The position numbers were made by a program, and so were the translations under genes. Below are positions 4,297-23,663 of a DNA stretch of 23,663 nt, piece after piece. The notes under the pieces were generated by a model that saw nothing but the letters and a program-made list of their open reading frames with translations, was not told where the DNA came from and did not search any database. Numbering within the stretch: position 1 is the stretch's first letter; every line of letters begins with the position of its first letter. The DNA lies in IMG/VR virus record IMGVR_UViG_3300035662_000164, positions 1 through 23,663 of that record. One strand, written 5' to 3'. Source of the stretch: a virus.

Positions 4297-5463
4297 ATGC
4301 CCGAAGCAATCATGCAATCCCTCGACAAGATCGAGTCCGCGCTCGAAAAGTTTGCCACCAAGCAGGATGTTGAATCGCGTATGGGAACGGTTTCCACCGA
4401 TACCAAGACCGCCATTGACAACCTCGGCATCAAGCAGCGCGAACTGGCCGACGAAATCGTCCAGCTCAAGCAGCGCGGCGCATCCCTGCCGGAAGACAAA
4501 CCCGGCATGACCTCCTGGGGCGCCCAGTTCATCAAGTCCGATGAATACAAGGGCAAGCTCAACCTGGTGGCCGGCAATCGCCAATTCGGCAGCATCGGCT
4601 TTGAAGTCAAAAACACCTTGGTTGGTTCTGATACCAACGTTGCCCCGGATCGCAAGCCCGGAATCGTGCGCGGCGCCATCTCACCGCTGACCCTACAAGA
4701 CTTTTTGACCAAGCTGCCGACTGCTTCCAACGCAATCGAGTTTACCAAAGAAAACGCTTTCACCAATTCCGCAGCGGAAGCGGCGGAAGGGGCAGCCAAG
4801 GCTGAAAGTGCTTTGACCTGGACGCTGGTGAATATGCCAATTTCTACCGTAGCCCACTGGATCAAGATCAGCCGCCAGCTCGCCGCCGATAACGTCGCTT
4901 TGGCGGCCTATGTCGATACCAGAATGCGTTATGGCGTCAACCGGAAAGTGGAAACCCAGCTTGCATCGGGTGATGGCACCGCACCCAACATCAGTGGCAT
5001 TTTCGACGCTGGCAACTATGTAGCGCACGGCATTGCCAACGCCGCGTTGGGTTCAACGCTAAAGAAACTGGTGCTGATCCGCCAGATCATGGGCACGCTG
5101 GAAGCACAGGGCGACATGCCGGATGCGATCCTGTTGAACCCAGCCGACTGGGCAACGATCGAAATCGACCTGTTCACCACTGCCGCCGGCCAAGTCCGCG
5201 TTGGCGTCAATGAAATGGGCCAGCGCACGCTGTTTGGAGTGCCGATCATCAGCACCGTCGGCGTCACCGCCGACACCTTCGCGGTTGGTAACTTCGCCCA
5301 GGCCTGCACCGTGTACGAGCGTGAGGGCGTCATCGTGGAAATGTCGGATTCCGACTCCGACAACTTCACCAAGAACCTGATCACCATTCGCGCCGAACGT
5401 CGCCTTGCACTGGCCACTGAACGCCCGGCCGCGATCATCGGTGGCGATCTGACCCCGGCTTAA
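4297..5463 (+). CDS. Major capsid protein, HK97 fold
   Basis: Builds the icosahedral shell. The 388-residue protein has an N-terminal heptad-rich, charged segment (about residues 5-68) that looks like the HK97 delta/scaffold domain removed by the protease. The HK97 capsid fold follows from about residue 115, with the familiar stretch HWIKISRQLAAD near residue 190 and a C-terminal ERRLALATERPAAI segment. A strong ribosome binding site (CTGAAAGGAAAAACC-ATG) precedes it and a strong terminator follows. Both fit high-level expression. Confidence 0.94.
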   Translation: MPEAIMQSLDKIESALEKFATKQDVESRMGTVSTDTKTAIDNLGIKQRELADEIVQLKQRGASLPEDKPGMTSWGAQFIKSDEYKGKLNLVAGNRQFGSIGFEVKNTLVGSDTNVAPDRKPGIVRGAISPLTLQDFLTKLPTASNAIEFTKENAFTNSAAEAAEGAAKAESALTWTLVNMPISTVAHWIKISRQLAADNVALAAYVDTRMRYGVNRKVETQLASGDGTAPNISGIFDAGNYVAHGIANAALGSTLKKLVLIRQIMGTLEAQGDMPDAILLNPADWATIEIDLFTTAAGQVRVGVNEMGQRTLFGVPIISTVGVTADTFAVGNFAQACTVYEREGVIVEMSDSDSDNFTKNLITIRAERRLALATERPAAIIGGDLTPA

Positions 5464-10186: not shown

Positions 10187-11413
10187 ATGCCCTTAGCCAC
10201 TGGAGTTGCCAAGCAAGTCCGTTACAAAGTCGAAGCCACCTACGGCACCCCGCCCGGCGCCGCGTCCGCCCAATTGCTGCGGCGTGTGCAATCCACGCTC
10301 GACCTCTCCAAAGACACCTACCAGTCGAATGAAATCCGCGATGACTACCAGATTGCCGATTTCCGCCACGGCGTGCGCAAGGTGGCTGGATCGCTCAACG
10401 GCGAACTCTCGCCCAAAACCTATGCCGACTTCATCGCTGCCGCCTTGCGGCGAGACTTCGCCGCAGTCAGCGCCATCACCGCCCTGTCGATCACCATCGC
10501 CGCCGGCTCGCTGCTGGGCGGCATGCAGACCTACACCGTCACCCGCGCCGCTGGCGACTTCCTGACCGGCGGCATCAAGATCGGCGACGTGGTGCGTCTT
10601 ACTGCCGGCACCTTCAACGTCAACAACCTCAACAAAAACCTGATGGTAGTGGGGCTCACCGCCACCATCGCCACCGTCGTCGCCCTCAATGCCACCGCAC
10701 TGACCGCCGAAGGCCCCATTGCCTCCGCCACCCTCAGCGTGGTGGGCAAAAAGACCTACGTACCGACCAGCGGCCACACCGACAAATCGTTCAGCGTCGA
10801 ACACTGGTTCAGCGATGTCGCGCAAAGCGAAGTGTTCACCGGCTGCAAGGTCAATACCGTGGGCATCAAGCTGCCCGCCACCGGCATGGCCACCATCGAC
10901 GTTGGCCTGGTCGGCAAAGACCTGGTCACCGCCACCAGCCAGTATTACACCAGCCCCACCGCCGCCACCGCCACCGGCGTGGTGGCCGCAGTCAACGGCG
11001 TGCTGGTCGTGGGTGGTGTGCCCATGGCCATCTGCACCGGCATCGACCTCAACATCGAAGGCGGCTACAGCGGCGAAGCGGTGGTCGGCGCCAACACCGT
11101 GCCCAACCAGTTCCCCGGCCGCGTCAAGGCCAGCGGCCAGTTCACCGCCTACTTCGAAAACGGCACCCTGCGCGACGCCTTCCTGAACGAGACCGAAATC
11201 AACCTCATCGTCGTCATGACCGCCAACAACGACGCCGCCGCCGACTTTATCGGCTTCACCCTGCCGCGCCTCAAACTGGGCGGCGCCAGCAAAGGCGACG
11301 GCGAAAGCGCCATCGTCGCCACCTTCCCGTTTCAGGCCCTGTTCAACAGCGCCGGCGGCACCGGCGTCAACAGCGAAAAAACCACCCTGGTCGTGCAAGA
11401 CAGCCAGGCCTGA
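10187..11413 (+). CDS. Major tail (tail tube) protein
   Basis: Forms the tail tube around the tape measure. The 408-residue protein matches the phage tail tube family that starts with A-K-Q-V-R-Y-K-V-E-x-T-Y-G-T-P-P. The segments LRRVQSTLDLSKDTYQSNEI (about residues 29-48) and RHGVRKVAGSLNGELSP (about 55-71) follow, and a beta-rich body. Glycine- and alanine-rich loops occupy the C-terminal half. The site CTGAAAGGAACCCACC-ATG and its own leader after a terminator suggest strong or separately controlled translation, as expected for a high-copy structural protein. Confidence 0.88.
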   Translation: MPLATGVAKQVRYKVEATYGTPPGAASAQLLRRVQSTLDLSKDTYQSNEIRDDYQIADFRHGVRKVAGSLNGELSPKTYADFIAAALRRDFAAVSAITALSITIAAGSLLGGMQTYTVTRAAGDFLTGGIKIGDVVRLTAGTFNVNNLNKNLMVVGLTATIATVVALNATALTAEGPIASATLSVVGKKTYVPTSGHTDKSFSVEHWFSDVAQSEVFTGCKVNTVGIKLPATGMATIDVGLVGKDLVTATSQYYTSPTAATATGVVAAVNGVLVVGGVPMAICTGIDLNIEGGYSGEAVVGANTVPNQFPGRVKASGQFTAYFENGTLRDAFLNETEINLIVVMTANNDAAADFIGFTLPRLKLGGASKGDGESAIVATFPFQALFNSAGGTGVNSEKTTLVVQDSQA

Positions 11414-12408: not shown

Positions 12409-15400
12409 ATGGCCATTGAAATTGGAAGTCTGGTGGTGGAACTGTCGGCCAATGTCGCGCGTCTGTCCGCCGACATGAACAAAGCCACCGGCATCGTCAG
12501 CGGCAGCATGAAAAACATGTCCGACAGCATCCAGGGAATCAGCAACCGCATGAATCTGATTGTCGGAAGCCAGGTATTTCAGTCCCTTGATCTGCTGGCC
12601 AGGCGTGGCATGGAAGCGTTTTCCGCCATCAAGCACAGCGCCATCGATGCCGCCGATGAGCTCAACAAGCTGTCGCAGAAGACCGGCTTCAGCACCGAAT
12701 CGTTGTCTGGCCTCAAATACGCAGCAGAACTATCCGACCTCAGCCTGGAAGGCATGACCAAAAGCCTCAAGAGCTTATCGGTCAACATGGTGGAAGCCAA
12801 AGGCGGCAGCAAGGAAATGGCCGGTATCTTCAAGCAACTGGGGGTGTCGATGGACGACCCGGAAGCTGCGTTGCTGCAACTGGCCGAACAATTCCAGCAG
12901 ATGCCGGATGGCGCCCAGAAAGCCGCCCTGGCCGTCAAACTGTTCGGCAAGGAAGGCCTGACCATGATCCCCTTCCTGAACCAGGGCCGCGATGGCATTG
13001 CCGAACTGACGGCAGAAGCGCAGCGGTTTGGGCTGGTAATCGACAGCGAAACCGCGCGCCAGGCCGAAGCCTTCAACGACAACCTGACCCGACTGAAAGC
13101 CAATGTTGGCGGCTTGGTGCAGCAGCTTGGCATGTCGATGTTGCCTATGCTGATGTCGTTGTCCGAGTCGTTGCTTTCCGCAAAAACGGCGGTCGGCGGG
13201 TTTGATGACAATGTCCGTCAGATCGTCGGCCGCCGCGCAGGTGTGGAAGGGTTCGTCGAGAGCTTCGCCAGAGGCATGGCGCATCTGTACAACATGATCA
13301 TGCCGGTCATCGTCATTGGCCGGCAGCTATACGATGTGCTCAAGGGCATCGCCATCGAGGGCGCTGGCTGGGCCGCCCAGATTGGCGCCCTGGCCAGCGG
13401 CAATATCAGCGGCTTCCGCGCCATCCGCGAAGCCGTCTCGCGTGACGCAGAACAGCTACGCAAAGACTCTGATGCATTCATCGCGCGCATCTCGTCTTCA
13501 GCCCAAGGCGCTGCCGGCAATGTCACCAAGTTTTTTGACGAGCACCGCCGCACCGTCCGCAGCGGCAGCCAGAAATACCTGATGGCCAGCGAACAAGACG
13601 CACGGTTGCTGCAAACCGCCATCGACAAAGCCTATAAAGGCGCCGGGAGATCCGTCAAGGATTTCGACTCGGTGCTGTCGGCCAGTAGCAACAACAGCAA
13701 GAAGGTGGCCGACGAAGCCGCCCAGCGTCTGGCGTCCATCAAAAACGCCGATCTCGATCTGGACTTTGCCAAAGTCGCGGCAGAAACCGAAGCGATCTAT
13801 GCGCGCTCGCAAGTGCTGGTGAAGCTGCAACAGCACGCCATCGATGCCTATGCCGACTCGCTCAACGAAGCCGCCTTCGCCGCTGCCGACCTGCAGATCA
13901 AGTTCAATGGCATGGTCGACGCCAATGCCCAGGCCATGACCGAAACGGCACAATCCACCGTGGCCAGCCTGGGCGAAGAGATCGAAGGCCTGCGGCTGCG
14001 CAACGAAGAAATCGGCCTCACTGCCGAGCAGCTGGCCCTGCTCACGCAAACCCGGCTGGACGCCACCATTGCCAGCAAAGAACAGCTTTATGCCGATACC
14101 GCGCTGACCGAGCAGAATGCAGATTACCTGGCGGCATTGGCCGAGCAAATCAAACTGCTGCGCGAAAAGAAAGGGTTGTTGGGCCAAGGGGCCGCCCGCC
14201 AACTGATTGCCGATGAAGCCCGCACGGCGCAGGATGAATGGAAGCGCGCGGCGGACGACATTGAAAAGAGCCTCACAGACGCCCTGATGCGCGGCTTTGA
14301 AGGCGGCAAAGATATTGGCCGCAACTTCGTCGACACAATCAAGAACTACCTCAAGGCCGCATTCCTAAAACCGATTTCGGTGCAGATCAGCACCACACTT
14401 CTTGGCGCGGTGGGCATGGGCGGCACAGCCCAGGCAGGAGGAATTGCGGGCGGCAGTTCAAGTACGATTGGCGTCGCAGGCGGGTTGAAGGCGCTATATG
14501 ACAGCGTCGCCGGCGGCTTCGCCGCGCTGGGAAATAGCGTAGCGTTTGCCACCGAAGCGGCGGGCAATTGGTTGGTGACCAACACCACAGGTGCGCTGAA
14601 TTCGGCCGGGTCATCTTTAATGGCCAACTCCGGCGCTGTCGGCTCTGCCGCTTCCGCGCTCGGCGGCGCAGCCGCCGGCTTTGTCCTCGGCAAGATGATC
14701 AGCGGCGGCTACAGTGTAATCGGCAAGAGTGGTAATACAGCCGTGGCACTGGGCACGGCCATCGGCTCGATATGGGGGCCGATCGGCTCGGTCATCGGCG
14801 GCGCCATCGGCGGCCTGGTAAACCGCGCATTCGGCATGGGGGCAAAAAAATCCACCGGCGATGGAATTAGCGGCACGTTTGCGGGCGAAGACTTCAGCGG
14901 CTCAGAATGGGCAACCTGGAAACAAAAAGGTGGCTGGTTCCGCTCCGATAAAAGCGGCATCGACACCGGGCCGCTTTCCAATCAAGCCACCAGGGCAATG
15001 TCCGACGAGTTTGCCTGGCTGAAGCGCGCGACGACGGATTACGCCCATGCGATGGGCCTCCAGACCGATAAAATTGTGGCGTACACAAAGAGCATCAACG
15101 TCAGCCTAACGGGGCTGGATGAGGCGGGCAGGCAAGCCAAATTCACCGAGGTTTTCGCCGAAATGGCGAATGACATGGCAAACCTGGCACTGGGGACGGT
15201 AAAGTACACCCGAGCCGGCGAATCCTCCGCACAAACACTGGAGCGCTTGGTTGTCCACTTGACCGCTGTCAACGCGACGATGGCCAGCCTGTCCCGCAAC
15301 GCCTTCTCCGCCAGCCTGTCTGGTGCGGACATGGCAAACCAACTGGCTGATTTGGCCGGTGGCATGCAGGCGTTTATCGACCTCTCAGCCGGGTATTACC

Positions 15401-17064
15401 AGAATTTTTACAGCGAAGGCGAACGCTTCACTGCCGCTGTGGCCGGTATGCGTGACAGCCTGATCAATATCGGCGTCAAAACCATGCCGACCACCATCGC
15501 CGCATTCCGCCAGTTGATGGAGGCGCAAGACCTCACCACCTTGAGTGGCCGCGCCACCTATGCCGCGCTGCTGAATGTATCAGCCGGGTTTGCCGAGTTG
15601 GTCAACAACATCTCCGGGCAACTGCACGAGCTGGAAGCCGAGCAGTTGAAACTGGCACAGGAAATCTTAGACGAACGCAACAACCTGGAAAAACAAATGT
15701 TCGCCCTGTTGGGCGACGAAGCCGCCCTGCGCGAACGCGAACTAGCCAGCATCGACCCGCTGAACCGCGCCCTGTTCTTGCATGTACAGGCGCTGAGCGA
15801 TGCAAAAACGGCAAATGAGGCCTACACCGACCAACTGAACGCGCTCGCCAGCGCCGGCCAGGGCGTGGCGAGTTTTATCCGCGAACTTCGCGCCGACCTA
15901 ACCTCTCCAGGCAGCACGTTAAACAGCCTGCGTAGTGCCTATAACGCAGACCTAAGCCGCGCCAAGTTGGGTGATTTCGACGCCAGCAACGCGATTGCCG
16001 ACAGCGCCAAAGAGTACCTTGATGCCGTGCGCAACCAGGCCAAGAGCCGCACCGAGTACGACATCGCCGCGACCCGCATCGCCAACGAGTTGGAGAAGTT
16101 GCCGGCCACCGAGAGCTATGCCAAGCAACAACTGGCGGCGCTGCAGAACCTGCACACCCAGGCCAACAGCCTGGACGCGCTCGATGCCGCACGGCAGGAA
16201 GCAGCAAAGCGCGTGCTAGGCAACGTCGACGCCAACACGGTGGACCTGTCAACACAGACCGATCGCCAGATCGACCAATTACGCCAGTTGGTGGGTGAGA
16301 GCATCACCAACAGCGCCCGCATCCTGCAACTGAATAGTTCGATGGATGCGCTGAAAAACGCCATTGTGGCCATGACCGCTGCGGAGAAAACCAAAGCCGA
16401 CATCGCCAACGGCAATATGTTGCTGAAGGCGCTGACCGAGCAGCAGGCGGGGGCGATTGCGGGGGTGAACGCGGGTATTGATCGAATCTGGCAACTGCAA
16501 TCCCTGTATGGCAGCGGGCAATACATCAACGCCAAGGCGGGGCCGTTGGATTACTCCAACAGCGCGCAATTTGCGGTTGTTGACGGTCTATATAGTCAGC
16601 AATACGGTCAGCACTCATACGCCACGATGACCGGCTACAACAACATCAGTGCTTTCAAAGCCGCCTACGCCGCTGAAAAGCTCTCCGACAAGACGCTAGG
16701 CCAAGCCAGCACCCTCAAAGACCTGAAAGACCAGATCGAAGCCCAGCGATCTGCCATCCGCGCTCTCGGCGGCATCCCGCAATTTGCCGTCGGCACCAAC
16801 TGGGTACCGCGTGACATGACCGCGCGCATCCACGAAGGCGAACGCATCATCCCCGCCGCCGATAACTCGGAATTGATGCGCCGGCTGTCCAGCCCGCGCG
16901 AGAACAACACCGCGCTGCTGGCCGAACTCAAAGCCCTGCGCGCCGAGGTGGTGCAGCTGCGCGCCGAAACCCGCGCCACCGCGCAGCACACCGGCAAGGC
17001 GGCACGCCTGCTCGACCGCGCCATGCCGGACGGGGATGCGCTCAGCGTGAGGGCTACAACATGA
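12409..17064 (+). CDS. Tail tape measure protein
   Basis: Sets tail length and is ejected with the DNA. At 1551 residues it would correspond to a tail of roughly 230 nm by the usual 0.15 nm per residue rule (inference). It opens with the typical EIGSLVVELSANVARLSADM. Amphipathic helices follow, then a long coiled-coil region (about residues 400-620). A Gly/Ala-rich hydrophobic part (about 660-810) could cross membranes during injection. More coiled coil occupies about 1060-1320. The C-terminus carries the common IPQFAVGTNWVPRDMTARIH and EGERIIPAADN stretches. The start follows GAGGAATGGATC. The 3' end overlaps the next gene as ATGA. Confidence 0.95.
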   Translation: MAIEIGSLVVELSANVARLSADMNKATGIVSGSMKNMSDSIQGISNRMNLIVGSQVFQSLDLLARRGMEAFSAIKHSAIDAADELNKLSQKTGFSTESLSGLKYAAELSDLSLEGMTKSLKSLSVNMVEAKGGSKEMAGIFKQLGVSMDDPEAALLQLAEQFQQMPDGAQKAALAVKLFGKEGLTMIPFLNQGRDGIAELTAEAQRFGLVIDSETARQAEAFNDNLTRLKANVGGLVQQLGMSMLPMLMSLSESLLSAKTAVGGFDDNVRQIVGRRAGVEGFVESFARGMAHLYNMIMPVIVIGRQLYDVLKGIAIEGAGWAAQIGALASGNISGFRAIREAVSRDAEQLRKDSDAFIARISSSAQGAAGNVTKFFDEHRRTVRSGSQKYLMASEQDARLLQTAIDKAYKGAGRSVKDFDSVLSASSNNSKKVADEAAQRLASIKNADLDLDFAKVAAETEAIYARSQVLVKLQQHAIDAYADSLNEAAFAAADLQIKFNGMVDANAQAMTETAQSTVASLGEEIEGLRLRNEEIGLTAEQLALLTQTRLDATIASKEQLYADTALTEQNADYLAALAEQIKLLREKKGLLGQGAARQLIADEARTAQDEWKRAADDIEKSLTDALMRGFEGGKDIGRNFVDTIKNYLKAAFLKPISVQISTTLLGAVGMGGTAQAGGIAGGSSSTIGVAGGLKALYDSVAGGFAALGNSVAFATEAAGNWLVTNTTGALNSAGSSLMANSGAVGSAASALGGAAAGFVLGKMISGGYSVIGKSGNTAVALGTAIGSIWGPIGSVIGGAIGGLVNRAFGMGAKKSTGDGISGTFAGEDFSGSEWATWKQKGGWFRSDKSGIDTGPLSNQATRAMSDEFAWLKRATTDYAHAMGLQTDKIVAYTKSINVSLTGLDEAGRQAKFTEVFAEMANDMANLALGTVKYTRAGESSAQTLERLVVHLTAVNATMASLSRNAFSASLSGADMANQLADLAGGMQAFIDLSAGYYQNFYSEGERFTAAVAGMRDSLINIGVKTMPTTIAAFRQLMEAQDLTTLSGRATYAALLNVSAGFAELVNNISGQLHELEAEQLKLAQEILDERNNLEKQMFALLGDEAALRERELASIDPLNRALFLHVQALSDAKTANEAYTDQLNALASAGQGVASFIRELRADLTSPGSTLNSLRSAYNADLSRAKLGDFDASNAIADSAKEYLDAVRNQAKSRTEYDIAATRIANELEKLPATESYAKQQLAALQNLHTQANSLDALDAARQEAAKRVLGNVDANTVDLSTQTDRQIDQLRQLVGESITNSARILQLNSSMDALKNAIVAMTAAEKTKADIANGNMLLKALTEQQAGAIAGVNAGIDRIWQLQSLYGSGQYINAKAGPLDYSNSAQFAVVDGLYSQQYGQHSYATMTGYNNISAFKAAYAAEKLSDKTLGQASTLKDLKDQIEAQRSAIRALGGIPQFAVGTNWVPRDMTARIHEGERIIPAADNSELMRRLSSPRENNTALLAELKALRAEVVQLRAETRATAQHTGKAARLLDRAMPDGDALSVRATT

Positions 17065-17957: not shown

Positions 17958-18421
17958 CCATTAGCGCACTACCCCCCGCGCCGACGCGCGAAGACGCCGC
18001 CGACTTCCGCACCCGCGCCGACGCGTTTTTGTCTGCGTTGCCGGCGTTTGGCACGCAGGCCAATGCGCTGGCGGCGGATGTGACCGCCAAGCAGTCGGAT
18101 GTAACCACCAAGCACGACTCGGTCATTGCCGCCCACACCACCGCCATGGCGGCAGGCCTGGCCAACGCCGCAACCAACGCCAGCACCGCCACCAGCAAAG
18201 CTACCGAAGCTGCCGCCAGCGCCAGCAACGCACAAGCCGCCTGGACCGCCGCCCTAGCAGCCAACCCCGATCTCAACCCTGTGATCCGCATGAACCCCCG
18301 CGTGGCCAGTGAAAACACCACCATCCCCAGCCACTTCAACGCCTACAGCGCCGGCCCGCTGGAAATCGCAGCCGGCACCACCATTACCCTTGAAGACCAT
18401 TCCACCTGGAGCATTTTATGA
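17954..18421 (+). CDS. Tail fibre shaft/attachment protein
   Basis: A 155-residue protein with a fibre-type N-terminus: ISALPPAPTREDAADFRTRA and a D-A-F-L-S-A-L-P segment, typical of tail fibre attachment domains. A long alanine/threonine-rich helical region follows (about residues 40-100, A-A-T-N-A-S-T-A-T-S-K repeats) that can trimerise. The C-terminal beta segment carries the N-A-Y-S-A-G-P-L-E-I-A-A-G-T-T-I-T-L-E-D motif, common at fibre ends. It is linked to the DGR variable protein gene by an ATGA overlap. The two probably form one fibre, with the diversified protein at the tip. Confidence 0.78.
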   Translation: MTISALPPAPTREDAADFRTRADAFLSALPAFGTQANALAADVTAKQSDVTTKHDSVIAAHTTAMAAGLANAATNASTATSKATEAAASASNAQAAWTAALAANPDLNPVIRMNPRVASENTTIPSHFNAYSAGPLEIAAGTTITLEDHSTWSIL

Positions 18422-19773
18422 GCAACCTGATCTTACGCAGCATCACCGGCAAGGACGGCCAACCAGTCTATTTTCCTAACGGCATCGCCATCGGTTCCGG
18501 CAATTCCGGCGGCGTCAATGATATCGGCCTTCCCGGCCAGCGCGGCTTCGGTGTTGGCATCTGTCCAGAGGCCCTGCCCACCGGCATGGTGGAGCTGTCC
18601 GGCACGCGCGATCCGGCGTCCGACAATTACGGAAATTATCAGTTTTCGGACGGTAGCATCATGGTCTGGATGCCGGCGTTTTTTTACAAGTTCGGCACCG
18701 GGGTAAACGGGCTGGCGATCAACATTGTTGACATCAAGCCGTTTTCCACCTACGCCAGCATCGCCTCCGCCACCTCAGCCGGCTATGCGTTGCACCGAGC
18801 GTTCTACGATGGCGGCGCAATCAAATCCGGCGTGTTTGTCGATAAATACCTCGCCACCAACAACGCTGGCACTGCCAGCAGCCTGCGTAACGGCAACCCG
18901 CTCAGCAGTGCCCTTGCACATAATCCGTTTAACGGCCTCACCGGCGCACCCGCAAACACGTATGCCGGCGCAATTGCAGCGGCAAAAACGCGCGGCGCGA
19001 ACTTCTTCTGCAACTCGCTGTTCATTTTCAAAGCGCTGGCTTTGCTTTCCCTGGCACACGGCCAATCCAGCACCAGCACCACATTTAATGCCTGGTATTC
19101 CAGCAGCACCAGCAACTTCCCGAAGGGCTGCAACAACAACGCACTGAGCGATGCGCAGGATGCCATGCTGACATTTGTGTGGGATGGCTACGCCGCCAAC
19201 AACTCATGCAAAACCGGTAGCGCCAACCTGTTCGCGCGCACCACACACAACGGGCAGAACTGTGGCGTGGCAGATCTTAATGGCTGCATGTGGGAGATCA
19301 CCCCGGGCTTGACGGTAAACAATAACGATCCCGCAGTCGGCAATTTTTATGTGCTGAAAACCGCCACGGCGATGCGCAACGTGACAGGCGGCAACGCCCT
19401 GGCGACTGATCTGTGGGGCGCAACCGGCCTAGCCGCGCTGTATGACGATCTCGGCCTGATGAACAACTTCACCGGCTATGCGCTGAATTTTTCCGACCGC
19501 ACATTAACGATGGGCAGCGCCAGCCAAGCGCTCAGCGCCGCCACCAGCGGCACCGCATGGCAGATGACCGGCGCGGGCGTTCCGCTAGTGGCAGGCGGGT
19601 CAAACATGTTCGGCAATGACACCCTAAACGATTTCAGCACGGCGGATTCGTGCCCGATTGCCGGCGGGTCTTGGAACGCTTCGTCCGGTGCGGGCGTTTG
19701 GGCGTTGGCCCTCAGCGCTGCGCGGGGCTACTCCGACGCCACTGTTGGGTTTCGCTCGGCCTTGTACCTCTGA
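18418..19773 (+). CDS. DGR variable tail fibre tip protein (C-type-lectin/FGE-like fold)
   Basis: The target protein of the retroelement, and probably the receptor-binding tip. The 451-residue protein has an N-terminal beta-rich part and a long central region with aromatic and glycine clusters. The sequence GCMWE (289-293) corresponds to the G-x-x-W-E core of formylglycine-enzyme/C-type-lectin folds used by DGR targets. The last 40 residues (412-451) are encoded by the variable repeat. They show the typical frame G-G-S-W-N...G-V-W...V-G-F-R-S, with conserved scaffold residues between diversified sites. The same logic holds for Mtd in Bordetella phage BPP-1. The gene starts in an ATGA overlap with the fibre gene and lies 17 bases before avd. 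Confidence 0.93.
   Translation: MSNLILRSITGKDGQPVYFPNGIAIGSGNSGGVNDIGLPGQRGFGVGICPEALPTGMVELSGTRDPASDNYGNYQFSDGSIMVWMPAFFYKFGTGVNGLAINIVDIKPFSTYASIASATSAGYALHRAFYDGGAIKSGVFVDKYLATNNAGTASSLRNGNPLSSALAHNPFNGLTGAPANTYAGAIAAAKTRGANFFCNSLFIFKALALLSLAHGQSSTSTTFNAWYSSSTSNFPKGCNNNALSDAQDAMLTFVWDGYAANNSCKTGSANLFARTTHNGQNCGVADLNGCMWEITPGLTVNNNDPAVGNFYVLKTATAMRNVTGGNALATDLWGATGLAALYDDLGLMNNFTGYALNFSDRTLTMGSASQALSAATSGTAWQMTGAGVPLVAGGSNMFGNDTLNDFSTADSCPIAGGSWNASSGAGVWALALSAARGYSDATVGFRSALYL
19650..19759 (+). repeat. DGR variable repeat (VR)
   Basis: 110 bp at the 3' end of the fibre tip gene that match the template repeat at 20196-20305. There are 15 differences, and each is an adenine in TR replaced by G (7), C (6) or T (2). 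All 88 non-adenine positions are identical. The adenine-free 3' end TGTTGGGTTTCGCTCGG is the probable initiation-of-mutagenic-homology element. Homology stops right after it, where VR and TR diverge. Confidence 0.97.
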
Positions 19774-19784
19774 CGGCCCGAGCG
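19753..19784 (+). promoter_or_regulatory. Stem-loop at the VR 3' end (putative DGR target hairpin)
   Basis: CGCTCGG (19753-19759) pairs with CCGAGCG (19778-19784) as a 7-bp perfect stem. It is extended inward by CC/GG (19760-19761 with 19775-19776) with one bulged C, and closes a 13-base loop. It spans the end of the VR and the fibre stop codon. The TR copy lacks the right arm. BPP-1 and related DGRs need a hairpin or cruciform just after VR for efficient retrohoming, so the position fits. It may also shade the avd start at 19791. Confidence 0.6.
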
Positions 19785-19790
19785 ATAGCG

Positions 19791-20192
19791 ATGGGCCTTC
19801 ACGACGAAGCTAGGCTGGATAGCAAATTTACGGACTTTGCACGTCAGATGAATTTGTATCTCAATCACTTCCCGAAACACGAGAAGCACGGTCTTGCGCT
19901 GGAGATTCGGCGCGCGGCTTATGACACCTACAGCTTCATCGTGGAGGCGCAAAAGCGCTATCACAAAAAAACCGCAATAACCAACCTCGATGTACGCCAC
20001 GAGCAGCTGCGCATGCTGCTGCGCTTGGCGCATGCGCTCGGTTATTTTGAGTTCAAGGATGGACACCACCACCCCGAGAAAGACGGCGAACACCGCTACT
20101 TAGTTATCTCGCGGATGGTGGACGAGTTAGGGCGCATGATCGGCGGCTGGGTAGTTGCTGATCGTGCGCTAGACAAACGGGAAGCGTCTTAA
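19791..20192 (+). CDS. avd: DGR accessory variability protein Avd
   Basis: Avd forms a positively charged barrel that binds the reverse transcriptase and TR RNA and is required for mutagenic homing. The 133-residue, all-helical protein contains the typical segments GLALEIRRAAYDTYSFIVEA (34-53) and RYHKKTAITNLDVRHEQLRM (56-75). The LLRLAHALGYF and SRMVDELGRMIGGW helices follow. It belongs to the bAvd / 23S-rRNA-intervening-sequence-like four-helix family. I chose ATG 19791 because the frame upstream of it is only an out-of-frame reading of the VR. No good Shine-Dalgarno precedes it, so translation is probably coupled to the fibre stop 17 bases before. Four bases separate its stop codon from the TR. 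Confidence 0.93.
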   Translation: MGLHDEARLDSKFTDFARQMNLYLNHFPKHEKHGLALEIRRAAYDTYSFIVEAQKRYHKKTAITNLDVRHEQLRMLLRLAHALGYFEFKDGHHHPEKDGEHRYLVISRMVDELGRMIGGWVVADRALDKREAS

Positions 20193-20195
20193 CAT

Positions 20196-20305
20196 GTGCC
20201 CGATTGCCGGCGGGAATTGGAACAATTCGTCCAGTGCGGGCGTTTGGGCGTTGAACCTCAACAATGCGCAGGGCAACTCCAACGACAATGTTGGGTTTCG
20301 CTCGG
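20196..20305 (+). repeat. DGR template repeat (TR)
   Basis: The 110-bp unaltered template, transcribed into RNA and reverse transcribed with adenine-specific errors. It contains 22 adenines. Read in the VR frame they fall in nine AAY asparagine codons plus ATT, AGT, CAG and GAC. No adenine substitution in this set can create a stop codon. TR lies between avd and the RT gene, as in BPP-1. Confidence 0.97.
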
Positions 20306-20447
20306 ACTCGGCTTCACCTCACGGATCGAAAGATCGAAGTGGAACCAAGGGAGACGCTTTCCGGCGCGAGGCTTTTGCCTCGGCTAAATCGGTTTGCATG
20401 GGCCTTTCTAGTAGGTTTGATTCTGTCATTCTCGAAAGTCTGGCCCC
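20196..20447 (+). ncRNA. Template RNA: TR plus structured spacer
   Basis: In DGRs the functional RNA runs from just before TR through the spacer to the RT gene and is bound by RT-Avd. The spacer here (20306-20447) holds two hairpins: GATC-GAAA-GATC (20324-20335, a GNRA-type tetraloop) and CGAGGC-TTTT-GCCTCG (20367-20382). The second is extended by two pairs with one bulged G. The exact RNA ends are not visible. An 85-codon frame (20194-20451) runs through the same stretch and its TGA overlaps the RT ATG. It could be read as a coupling leader, but I do not call it a protein gene. Confidence 0.75.
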
Positions 20448-21449
20448 ATGAAACGCGCTGGCTATTTATTCGAGCGCACGTTTACACCGGCGTCTTTGTT
20501 GGCGGCATTCCATGCCGCCGCACGCCACAAGCGCGGTAAACGCGCCTGCTTTCAATTCGAAAAGCACTTGGCACACAACCTGGACGCACTGCACGCCGAA
20601 TTGCACGGCGGCACATATCGCCCCGGCCCCTACTACAGCTTCACCGTTTACGAACCAAAAACGCGGCAGATATACGCACCTGCTTTCCGCGACCTAGTGG
20701 TGCAACATGCCATCTACGCCGAGATCTACCCGATATTCAACAGGGGCTTCATTGACCAATCGTTCGCCTGCCGAGTCGGGCGAGGCACGCACAAGGCCGC
20801 TGATTATGCGCAGGAGGCAATGCAGGTTTGTGCGCCGGACAGCTACACGCTCAAGCTCGATATCCGCAAATTTTTCTATCGCATCGACCGCGATATTCTG
20901 CGCACATTGATTGAGCGCAAGATTAAAGATCGCCGCTTCGTTGATCTGATGATGGCCTTTGCAGACCACGGCGAACCAGTCGGCATCCCCATCGGCAATC
21001 TACTCAGCCAGATTTACGCACTGCTTTACCTAGACCCGCTCGACCACTTCATTGTGCGCGAAATCAAGCCGCTGCGTTACTGCCGTTATGTTGATGATTT
21101 TGTGCTTTTCGGCCTGACTCGCGCGAACGCCGTGACCGCACGAGAGCGGGTGATAGTGTTCTTGGCCGGCCTGCGCCTCACGCTATCACGCTCAACCCTG
21201 GCCCGCGTCACACGCGGCATCAACTTCGTCGGCTACCGCACCTGGGCCAGCAAGCGCTTCATCCGCCGGCACAGCCTTTACACACTAAGAGCCGCCGCCA
21301 AACGCGGGAGGCTCGATAGCGTGATCAGTGTTTTGGGCCACGCACGCAAAACCCACTCTTTGCAGCACCTGCTGCGCTACCTGAAAGGAAATCACCATGC
21401 CCTCTATCGTCTCCTACCGAAAGTTTATCAACGCCCAGGTTACTCGTGA
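20448..21449 (+). CDS. DGR reverse transcriptase
   Basis: Copies TR RNA into adenine-mutated cDNA that replaces VR. The 333-residue protein has the ordered RT motifs. These are Y-S-F-T-V-Y-E-P-K-T-R (64-73), the F-R-D-L-V-V-Q-H-A segment (80-88), L-D-I-R-K-F-F (137-143, catalytic D138), GIPIGNLLSQ (179-188) and the YVDD catalytic box (214-217). G-I-N-F-V-G-Y (257-263) completes the thumb-side pattern. The I-G-N-L-L-S-Q form of motif 4 (instead of Q-G-x-x-x-S-P) is the DGR-RT hallmark. Overall it closely parallels the Bordetella phage enzyme in length and motif order. The ATG overlaps the stop of the TR-spanning frame as ATGA. The 3' end overlaps the next gene by 53 bases. Confidence 0.96.
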   Translation: MKRAGYLFERTFTPASLLAAFHAAARHKRGKRACFQFEKHLAHNLDALHAELHGGTYRPGPYYSFTVYEPKTRQIYAPAFRDLVVQHAIYAEIYPIFNRGFIDQSFACRVGRGTHKAADYAQEAMQVCAPDSYTLKLDIRKFFYRIDRDILRTLIERKIKDRRFVDLMMAFADHGEPVGIPIGNLLSQIYALLYLDPLDHFIVREIKPLRYCRYVDDFVLFGLTRANAVTARERVIVFLAGLRLTLSRSTLARVTRGINFVGYRTWASKRFIRRHSLYTLRAAAKRGRLDSVISVLGHARKTHSLQHLLRYLKGNHHALYRLLPKVYQRPGYS

Positions 21450-21837
21450 ACTTGCCGCGCCTGATGGCGCGACCGAACTCGCCACCTTGGCGGATGGCAC
21501 CACATACGTTTGCCTGCCCGAAGCCGGCGCCCTGCCAGTCGCGCAGCACGCCGAAATCGTAGACAGCATCGCCAGCGTGACGCCGGATGCCACCCTGCGC
21601 GCTCAAATCATTGCCGCCAGCCCGCATTGTCGGTTGATTGATGAGCGCATGCGCACCATGATCCGCGACGCCTATCCATTGGAGGATGAACTTAAGTTCG
21701 CCCGCATCGGTGTTGGCGCGGCGATGGGGGTGTATCAACCCACTAGCGATGAAGTGCAGGCCATGACCGTGTTCGGCGAATTTGTCGAAGGCGTGCGGCA
21801 ATGGGGGCGGGATCAACGCACTTCGCTTGGGTTGTGA
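21397..21837 (+). CDS. Phage protein of unknown function downstream of the DGR RT
   Basis: A 146-residue protein with a strong site (CTGAAAGGAAATCACC-ATG) inside the last 53 bases of the RT gene. Its N-terminal half is predicted mixed alpha/beta (ELATLADGTTYVCLPEAG, then A-Q-H-A-E-I-V-D-S-I). The C-terminal half (IRDAYPLEDELKFARIGVG, then F-V-E-G-V-R-Q-W-G-R-D-Q-R, ending T-S-L-G-L) resembles short phage proteins encoded next to tail fibre genes (Y-x-x-x-D-E-L-K ... W-G-R-x-x-x-x-x-L-G-L). Their role is not established. A fibre assembly or fibre-associated role is a guess from position. A tiny gene follows with a one-base overlap. Confidence 0.75.
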   Translation: MPSIVSYRKFINAQVTRELAAPDGATELATLADGTTYVCLPEAGALPVAQHAEIVDSIASVTPDATLRAQIIAASPHCRLIDERMRTMIRDAYPLEDELKFARIGVGAAMGVYQPTSDEVQAMTVFGEFVEGVRQWGRDQRTSLGL

Positions 21838-21985: not shown

Positions 21986-22090
21986 GCGCGTTTATTGTGT
22001 GCTGTGTTGTATGTTTAAGCTGTTGATTTGATTATTAAAGTGTACGTTTTTATGTATATTTGAGTGCTAATCTTACTAACTCCTGTCAAA

Positions 22091-22153: not shown

Positions 22154-23290
22154 CTAGCCTGTTTTCATAATGATTTTAGTCCACTCAGACCCGCGAACAT
22201 CCCGATAAACGGCAGTCGTTGCTGCGTCCTTGTGACCGGCCAGCGCCTGGGCGAATTCGGCGCCGGCCTGATCGGTCCATAACCTGATCGAGAGTGAGCG
22301 CATTTCGTGGAAGGTCGGCGGTTCGATGCCCTCAGGCCAGAAGCGCGGCACGGAATCGCGCGCCTTGGCGAATCCCTTTGTCAGCCGGTTGAGCGATAGC
22401 GCATCACCTGGTGCTACTCTGGATTGATGCCGTATCTGATGCAGTAGCCAGGGTGAAACCACGGCATCGCGGCATTTCGCCACCACATCGGATAGCGTCA
22501 GATCGAGCGAGTCAAGGCGCAGATCGAGCGGGATGGCGAGTTGTGCGCCTGTCTTGCCTTGTCGCACGTAGAGCGTGCCGGACTCGATCCATGCCGATGC
22601 GTCGGCACGCTTGCGGAACTGCATCGCGGCCAGGTCTTCGCGCCTTTGGCCGGTAATGATGGCAAGTTCCATGGCGCGTTGCAGCCACGGGTCATGCTTG
22701 GCGGCAGCGGCATAGATGACGCGGAATCCGTCGAGCGTCAGGCGGGCGCGTTTGACGCCGGCCGGGACGCTGCGTAGCACCATGATGGGGTTGGTGGTTG
22801 CCCATCCCTGGGCGATGGCTTCGCGCCACACGTCCTGGACGTAGCTTTTCCAGTTCACCGCCGCGCCGTGTTTGCCGGCTTCGATCATGCCGTCGATCCA
22901 GTCCGCCCAGATGCGCGGCGCGGCGAGTTCGGCCAGTGTTCGCCGCCCGAATTTGGCCTCAAGTGCGCTGCGCTTCCAGTTTAATTGCCGTTGGGTTGTT
23001 GCGGCCAGGTTGCGTCTGGATTGAATCTTGGCGTATTCGCTGAGCCAGTCCGCCAGCGTGGCGCCGGTGCTGGCTTGAATCTTTGCGAGGATGTCTGTCT
23101 GTGCTTGTTCGGCCTCAACGTATTGGTTGGCCTCGATGGCCTGCTTGATCGCGTCCTTGCGCGGCACGCGGCCCACTGCGATGGCTTTCCCAATCAGGCG
23201 GTTGACGTAAACAAAGTACCCCGGCCGCTGTTCATAGAGGTTTGCGGGTAGATCATCGCTGGTTGTTTTGCGCGGCCTGCTCACGGACAT
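22154..23290 (-). CDS. int: Tyrosine integrase, lambda type
   Basis: Site-specific recombinase for phage integration and excision. The 378-residue protein has an N-terminal arm-binding region (about residues 1-55). A core-binding domain follows (about 75-170). The catalytic domain carries R216 (TGQR), K246 (QGKTG), H328 and R331 (HEMR), H353 (AGHK) and nucleophile Y362 (TAVYR). All six catalytic residues are present, so the enzyme should be active. The start at 23290 lies inside the excisionase gene (38-base overlap), typical of int-xis operons. The gene faces the late operon tail to tail, across the probable attP region. Confidence 0.96.
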   Translation of the reverse strand: MSVSRPRKTTSDDLPANLYEQRPGYFVYVNRLIGKAIAVGRVPRKDAIKQAIEANQYVEAEQAQTDILAKIQASTGATLADWLSEYAKIQSRRNLAATTQRQLNWKRSALEAKFGRRTLAELAAPRIWADWIDGMIEAGKHGAAVNWKSYVQDVWREAIAQGWATTNPIMVLRSVPAGVKRARLTLDGFRVIYAAAAKHDPWLQRAMELAIITGQRREDLAAMQFRKRADASAWIESGTLYVRQGKTGAQLAIPLDLRLDSLDLTLSDVVAKCRDAVVSPWLLHQIRHQSRVAPGDALSLNRLTKGFAKARDSVPRFWPEGIEPPTFHEMRSLSIRLWTDQAGAEFAQALAGHKDAATTAVYRDVRGSEWTKIIMKTG

Positions 23291-23483
23291 GATCTAGGAT
23301 GCTCTTGGGTTGGTCAGTTTGCTTCCGATACATCGCCGTTGGCAACACGTAGATTTTCGCGCCGGCGCGGATCGGTTCCGGGTAGATGCGCCCCTGGCTG
23401 ACCCAGCGCCGTGCGGTGCTGATGTGCGGCGGCGGGTCGAAGTTGTCGGCCAGCCAGCGGCTTAGTTCGATGTGTTTGGCCAT
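23253..23483 (-). CDS. xis: Excisionase (Xis-like DNA-binding protein)
   Basis: A 76-residue protein with the excisionase winged-helix pattern. An N-terminal helix E-L-S-R-W-L-A-D-N-F is followed by P-P-P-H-I-S-T-A-R-R-W-V-S-Q-G-R-I (residues 17-33, recognition helix). A wing reading P-E-P-I-R-A-G-A-K-I-Y-V (36-47) comes next. This matches lambda-type Xis / Exc proteins that bend attachment DNA and direct Int towards excision. It overlaps the integrase start, so the two are co-expressed. No strong Shine-Dalgarno is visible before its ATG. Confidence 0.87.
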   Translation of the reverse strand: MAKHIELSRWLADNFDPPPHISTARRWVSQGRIYPEPIRAGAKIYVLPTAMYRKQTDQPKSILDHVREQAAQNNQR

Positions 23484-23515
23484 GTGACGTAAAACTCTGT
23501 AAATACGCGGTTACG

Positions 23516-23529
23516 CGTCAAAAGTGACG
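23516..23529. promoter_or_regulatory. Inverted repeat between xis and the upstream gene
   Basis: CGTCA-AAAG-TGACG forms a 5-bp inverted repeat. GTGACGT occurs at 23484-23490 and 23524-23530, and CGTCAC recurs in inverse orientation near 23546. The cluster could bind Xis or a repressor. This is a weak, pattern-based call. Confidence 0.3.
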
Positions 23530-23533
23530 TGTC

Positions 23534-23663
23534 TCATGCGTTGGGCGTCACTGGCCGTTCTTGTCCTGGAGTCCATTCCAGGTATCCGCCTTCCTCACTT
23601 GCCGCCTGGCTCATGGCCTGGTGGCATTCAGGGTGCATCTTGATCGTTCCGACGTCGCCTGAA
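23534..23663 (-). CDS. Partial early gene of unknown function (3' end only)
   Basis: An open frame on the minus strand runs from the window edge to TGA at 23534-23536. It gives the last 42 residues of a protein: I-K-M-H-P-E-C-H-Q-A-M, then E-E-G-G-Y-L-E-W-T-P-G-Q-E-R-P. The H-P-E-C and E-W-x-x-G patterns recall small early phage proteins with a Cys/His site seen near int/xis operons. The rest is outside the window, so I do not assign a function. Confidence 0.6.
   Translation of the reverse strand, partial: SGDVGTIKMHPECHQAMSQAASEEGGYLEWTPGQERPVTPNA

Follow-up and report, generated by a model that had tools for sequence, protein, structure and literature searches.

Does a phage genome that seems to encode a diversity-generating retroelement (DGR) carry a complete element, and has this element been at work? 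The question is raised by IMG/VR virus record IMGVR_UViG_3300035662_000164, of which we analyzed positions 1 to 23,663 (23,663 nucleotides; subsequently designated the window). A preceding sequence-only reading had placed a complete and apparently intact DGR of a temperate siphovirus at 18418-21449. We conclude with high confidence that the window holds a complete DGR, that its carrier is a tailed and temperate phage, most likely of the siphovirus type, and that this element has been active in nature.

All parts of a DGR were located within 18418-21449 as claimed (Table 1), i.e. a target gene with the variable repeat (VR), the accessory gene avd, the template repeat (TR) and a gene for a reverse transcriptase (RT). 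Target, avd and RT are open reading frames in the same direction, and the predicted YVDD and I-G-x-x-x-S-Q motifs of the RT are present, the latter as IGNLLSQ. VR and TR form a 113-nt direct repeat with an offset of 546. The two copies are 86% alike, with 97 identical and 16 different columns, and TR carries A at each of the 16 mismatches (chance probability 2.2e-14, hypergeometric). Seven of the 23 TR adenines are unchanged and not a single C, G or T differs. One of the mismatches, TR 20306 A versus VR 19760 C, recurs unchanged in all copies of the phage and is located in the 3' end of VR, which is constant apart from it; in our own comparison it resembles the difference between the IMH (initiation of mutagenic homing) and IMH* sites of Bordetella phage BPP-1. 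The remaining 22 TR adenines occupy 13 codons, allowing ~1e13 stop-free amino-acid combinations. Avd matched the Pfam family bAvd above its cut-off and the PHROG family 'Avd protein of DGR' (3e-21), while the RT matched RVT_1 (Pfam) and the PHROG RT family (9e-96).

Variation of the VR in a population, confined to TR adenines, had been named by the sequence-only reading as a sign of activity, and we looked for it in contigs, not reads. Searching the viral contigs of IMG/VR with the RT yielded seven contigs with 100% identical RT (L002-L008), which align to the window gap-free over 3.9 to 12.9 kb; L005 begins inside the VR. L006 is identical to the window over 9.8 kb including the VR. The six others differ from the window at 74 positions of the DGR region, all inside the VR and 72 of them at TR-adenine columns. 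No differences were detectable in TR, avd, RT or the remainder of the target across L002-L008. In addition to the VR version of the window, five complete versions and a partly covered one were present, the latter in L005, which matches L007 where both can be read. Since six near-identical contigs hold VRs differing at TR-adenine columns, with TR, avd and RT unchanged, the contigs indicate that the DGR has been active in nature, in the sense of past activity and without a rate. In this clean natural population the phage is invariant over the DGR region except for the VR, so that assembled contigs suffice to follow mutagenic retrohoming and no culture is needed.

Related populations behaved likewise. 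In group A (81% RT identity), 0 to 15 VR-adenine columns separate the members of a pair, with no other difference over up to 5.8 kb, and pairs of group B show 2 to 19 VR-adenine differences with 0 to 3 differences outside. The group F pairs L074/L075, L074/L078 and L075/L078 follow the VR-adenine pattern with 0 to 4 differences outside and no more than a single non-A change. Groups D and G deviate, with many outside differences or with differences in TR, and were excluded from the support. In the pair L079/L081, VR and flanks are identical and the presumed TR contains 8 differences, which may reflect a mis-set repeat boundary, a mix-up of TR and VR during assembly or a genuine change of TR.

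Could the DGR be decayed or silent, the VR/TR difference representing an old, fixed event? One genome alone cannot discriminate here, and the VR of L006 equals that of the window. However, the further VR versions among otherwise identical contigs, the intact TR, avd and RT and the variation in the related populations make a silent element very unlikely. Slightly less probable still is an origin of the VR differences in ordinary gene conversion or recombination with VR-like copies of related phages, or in assembly mixing of TR and VR. Assembly can be misled by repeats as similar as these, and L079/L081 is a possible example. However, at TR-adenine columns the VRs carry C, G and T, unlike TR and unlike one another, and non-A columns are constant, while exchange with TR could only bring A back.

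The phage carrying this DGR is temperate: it possesses int, xis and a repressor and has an integrated copy at mlaE. This copy is L008, in which the phage sequence breaks off at window 22071 (L008 position 11624) and a bacterial gene for an MlaE-family permease (E 2e-24) follows, entered at its 3' end; the junction marks the integration site. The contig of L002 links the right part of the window to its left end via a 14.6-kb early region, which includes the repressor. A divergence at 23542 was also considered as prophage end and rejected, since L002's contig continues through it to the left end of the window; the integrated end lies near 22071. Both the HK97-type head and the 1551-residue tape measure of the sequence-only reading were recovered (Table 1), together with genes for protease, portal, terminase and head-tail connectors. 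The sheath family PF04984 was absent from the window and from L002's contig. Because a sheath is absent and the tape measure is long, the phage is probably of the siphovirus type. Hence, the proposed temperate lifestyle stands, whereas the siphovirus morphology is probable only.

Several points weigh against an active DGR in a siphovirus. Activity was deduced from contigs, perhaps from few related samples, and assembly keeps one haplotype. Two of the VR differences do not fall on TR adenines; both represent the T to G change at 19698, shared by L005 and L007. Avd scored below the cut-off of its equivalog model NF033474 (E 7e-20), and all matches of the RT to NCBIfam RT models were below cut-offs as well. 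Finally, the morphology is read from gene content.

Table 1. Coordinates of the DGR and of other phage features in the window.
Feature	Position	Strand	Details
DGR target gene	18418..19773	+	451 aa; VR encodes its C-terminus; open ORF (open reading frame)
VR	19650..19762	+	mutable adenine columns 19657-19742; constant 3' part 19743-19759; fixed C (A in TR) at 19760
Post-VR target hairpin	19775..19797	+	GGCCC-GAGC-GATA-GCGA-T-GGGCC; GRNA loop, tandem G.A mismatch, bulged T
avd (accessory variability determinant)	19791..20192	+	133 aa; PF22296 E 1e-16, PHROG Avd
Closing-helix 5' arm (avd 3' end)	20178..20190	+	13 bp; 3' arm 20351-20363; encloses TR-containing RNA; covariation, 30 relatives
TR	20196..20308	+	23 adenines; identical across all eight contigs of the phage
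TR-RT spacer	20309..20447	+	139 nt; structured RNA; closing-helix 3' arm 20351-20363; covarying hairpins
DGR reverse transcriptase	20448..21449	+	333 aa; YVDD and IGNLLSQ motifs
Conserved gene overlapping RT 3' end	21397..21837	+	146 aa; after RT in 95/109 related loci
HK97-type major capsid protein	4297..5463	+	PF05065 E 5e-39
Tape measure protein	12409..17064	+	1551 aa; PHROG tape-measure families
Approximate phage attachment point	22060..22071		L008 phage sequence ends 22071, enters bacterial mlaE 3' end
Tyrosine integrase	22154..23290	-	378 aa; PF00589, PF09003; PHROG integrase
Excisionase	23253..23483	-	76 aa; PHROG excisionase E 9e-11

Which protein is diversified? The target alone gave no match by phmmer against the PDB or in Pfam, and its nearest solved fold, TaqVP of Thermus aquaticus (5vf4), surfaced only via an alignment profile and the predicted fold. 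The profile, built from 50 target relatives, matches TaqVP over the VR end. Foldseek searches with an AlphaFold model of the target (predicted local distance difference test, pLDDT, 86) retrieved TaqVP with E 8e-16 and template modelling (TM) scores of 0.53-0.62, and five variants of the BPP-1 protein Mtd with E 3e-3 to 1e-2. These matches support the predicted C-type lectin fold with the VR at the C-terminus, in line with the sequence-only reading. PHROG assigned the target to a tail protein family (E 2e-8), and the matches among predicted viral structures included many 'tail collar fiber' proteins from sipho-, myo- and podoviruses. The target is a probable tail or receptor-binding protein, which would bind the host.

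The region around TR appears to fold as RNA. In an alignment of 30 relatives, 96% of the cells were paired as compared to 39-49% when the structure was slid, and two-sided changes occurred at 29 of 42 pairs; an alignment-derived structure partly favours itself, the margin nevertheless being large. Supported elements are the 13-bp helix between avd tail and spacer, which encloses TR, and several spacer hairpins. The fold of the single sequence was weak (z -1.9), and an Rfam scan of the window returned zero families at gathering scores. Other DGRs were searched for a comparable avd-tail/spacer helix: BalMu-1 and a Helicobacter prophage showed it clearly, whereas it was not significant in Pseudomonas phage Bise (OR683401) and in a relative of BPP-1 (PV330005, L118).

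For efficient homing, BPP-1 depends on a hairpin directly after VR whose stem is GC-rich and whose loop is of the GRNA type (PMC3240598). In the window a GRNA loop is present (GATA), but not a perfect GC-rich stem, as this is interrupted by a tandem G.A and a bulged T. A search with the hairpin core pattern detected 37 distinct sequences across 66 loci. The outer stem was paired in 79% of the cells of 32 of these sequences as compared to 26-46% in slid registers, with two-sided changes at 8 of 9 pairs, and none of 500 shuffles reached the same covariation; a few distant rows pair poorly outside the core. Other relatives (L024, L056, L102) have unbroken stems with GRNA loops, and both hairpin forms thus occur within one lineage. 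Folding of the DNA at 19743-19830 alone performed no better than shuffles, and the hairpin emerged from the comparison across relatives; we think that the energy model does not reward its tandem G.A pairs. The hairpin overlaps the start codon of avd, which may constrain it. A different candidate was the inverted repeat TCGCTCGG/CCGAGCGA, which overlaps the 3' end of VR; many relatives lack it, and it was rejected as functional hairpin.

How these parts might act together can be modelled on BPP-1, whose spacer folds to recruit RT-Avd and primes cDNA synthesis, the cDNA being stopped by a motif near the end of avd, on its 3' side (PMC12875486). In the window, avd, TR and RT would be transcribed together, and avd tail and spacer would fold around TR. 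RT with Avd would prime cDNA from the spacer and copy TR with errors at A. The cDNA would enter at the constant 3' end of VR, aided by the hairpin directly after the target stop codon, and replace VR, so that every round would create a new version of the predicted receptor-binding protein. How cDNA is primed, in which order the events occur and that the target binds the host are inferred, whereas the parts themselves, the adenine-restricted VR divergence between copies, the unchanged TR, the covariation of RNA and hairpin, and lysogeny are shown by the sequences. Outside BPP-1, the covarying RNA and target hairpin provide structure that can be tested.

Where does the DGR come from? A maximum-likelihood tree comprising 46 RTs sets the four RTs of group II introns apart (100/98) and places the window RT among the DGR RTs; family searches and an RT tree, the checks suggested by the sequence-only reading, both agree with a DGR. 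The window RT nests with viral contigs, proteobacterial and campylobacterial metagenome-assembled genomes and phage Bise. The BPP-1 relative pairs with Chromohalobacter phage YPCBV-1 (97/89), away from this lineage, the deep order of the DGR branches being only partly resolved. The partial row of the crAss115 RT (38 aa, 11% of columns) was included and its position not used. Among solved structures, the best relative is 8ub7 'Reverse transcriptase' (4.5e-47, versus 1e-26 for the top group II intron RT), which we take to be the DGR RT of BPP-1. A transfer of the BPP-1 DGR into a siphovirus would fit this hit as well as the identical order target-avd-TR-RT, which the sequence-only reading had correctly pointed out. 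However, this order is common among DGRs, the tree assigns the RT to a separate lineage, the target is closer to TaqVP than to Mtd and the hairpin is different, making such a transfer highly improbable; the idea of a BPP-1-like DGR joined to a long-tailed virus was not borne out. An RT from a defence system, a retron or a group II intron that happens to lie beside an unrelated repeat is a practically negligible alternative, as weak cross-matches to group II, Drt and retron models remain far below the NCBIfam cut-offs, whereas 8ub7, the IGNLLSQ motif, the separate clade of group II RTs and the adjoining avd and TR/VR pair all argue for a DGR RT.

The DGR cassette is a stable, widespread module. 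A fifth gene, in the window 21397-21837, follows the RT in 95 of the 109 related loci with enough sequence, nearly always 942-973 nt from the RT start. Across the family, TR and VR are mostly spaced by 538-602. The phage genes on either side differ from those of the window in many relatives, indicating that the module occurs in unlike phages; Bise and L072's contig represent contractile-tailed relatives. The fifth gene likely belongs to the module and possibly encodes a tail-fibre chaperone. It matched no Pfam family, and a DUF4376 chaperone, suggested by a Bacteroides phage neighbour, was not confirmed.

Elsewhere in the phage, two further sites vary. At window coordinates 10450-10654, remote from the DGR, L007 has 15 differences clustered in ~200 nt and is otherwise identical, likely representing a recombination tract in the tail region. 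An apparent integron-type cassette site lies at window 23542, upstream of xis by 60 bp, where contigs that otherwise agree continue with four different sequences after ...CTCATGCG/TT (window 23497-23548; L002 5261-5528; L005 3857-4264; L003 6034; L006 9798). L005 shows two differences adjoining this junction. The differing segments of L002 (269 nt) and L005 (409 nt) rejoin exactly at a second G/TTAGCC, and the next 681 nt are identical. At both ends a G/TT precedes RRRY or a near match to it; the two segments terminate in attC-like palindromes, and the shared site itself folds attC-like; the cassette genes are oriented towards xis and int. Window and L006 share the VR and differ in the cassette, whereas L002 and L006 share the cassette and differ in the VR, so that VR and apparent cassette vary independently. 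Phages with integron cassettes and attC arrays have been described before (PMC9892861). That one phage population runs two separate diversity systems, a DGR and an integron-type cassette exchange near xis, is a tentative reading to which we give somewhat less than an even chance; the integrase moving the cassettes would necessarily be host-derived. Alternatively, the differences at this site may result from chimeric assembly.

Finally, how does this DGR compare with known systems? With BPP-1 (Rauchvirus) it has in common the order of parts, VR/TR differences restricted to TR adenines (19 in the BPP-1 relative, all at TR-A) and a GRNA-loop hairpin after VR. An HK97-like head is shared as well (PMC3863775) and does not set the two phages apart, contrary to the assumption of the sequence-only reading. 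BPP-1 differs in being a podovirus with its RT on another branch and with Mtd, a weak fold match to the window target, and its relative has a perfect 8-bp stem with GAAA loop (GCGGGGCC-GAAA-GGCCCCGC) where the window's stem is interrupted. Bise is the closest cultured RT relative (58% identity over 99%) and of the same lineage, but has a contractile tail with sheath and an unbroken hairpin stem, and no homologue of 21397-21837 was found in it. TaqVP, despite its similar fold, has ~15% sequence identity to the target and to our knowledge is not known as a phage tail protein.

A published catalogue of DGRs comprises more than 30,000; three of six major lineages occur mainly in phages, and viral DGRs are the most active (PMC8144416). 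Siphoviridae confirmed by transmission electron microscopy already include DGR carriers with differences concentrated in the VR (PMC8143477), and the combination of a DGR with a long-tailed virus is not novel as previously suggested. These Bacteroides uniformis Bacuni siphophages likewise possess a complete DGR, and near-identical phages differ mainly in the VR, but they have two target genes, lysogens were not detected and the host is Bacteroides (PMC8143477). DGR prophages of Faecalibacterium are temperate with VR activity visible in reads, but have other hosts and other targets (DUF6273, Ig-like, Mtd-like), and two VRs are present in some of them (PMC11792537). The present results correct the view that a long-tailed phage is an unusual carrier of such a DGR or that the element stems from BPP-1. 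Phages of this kind were known to carry DGRs before; new are the evidence from within a population, the covariation of the RNA and the interrupted hairpin.

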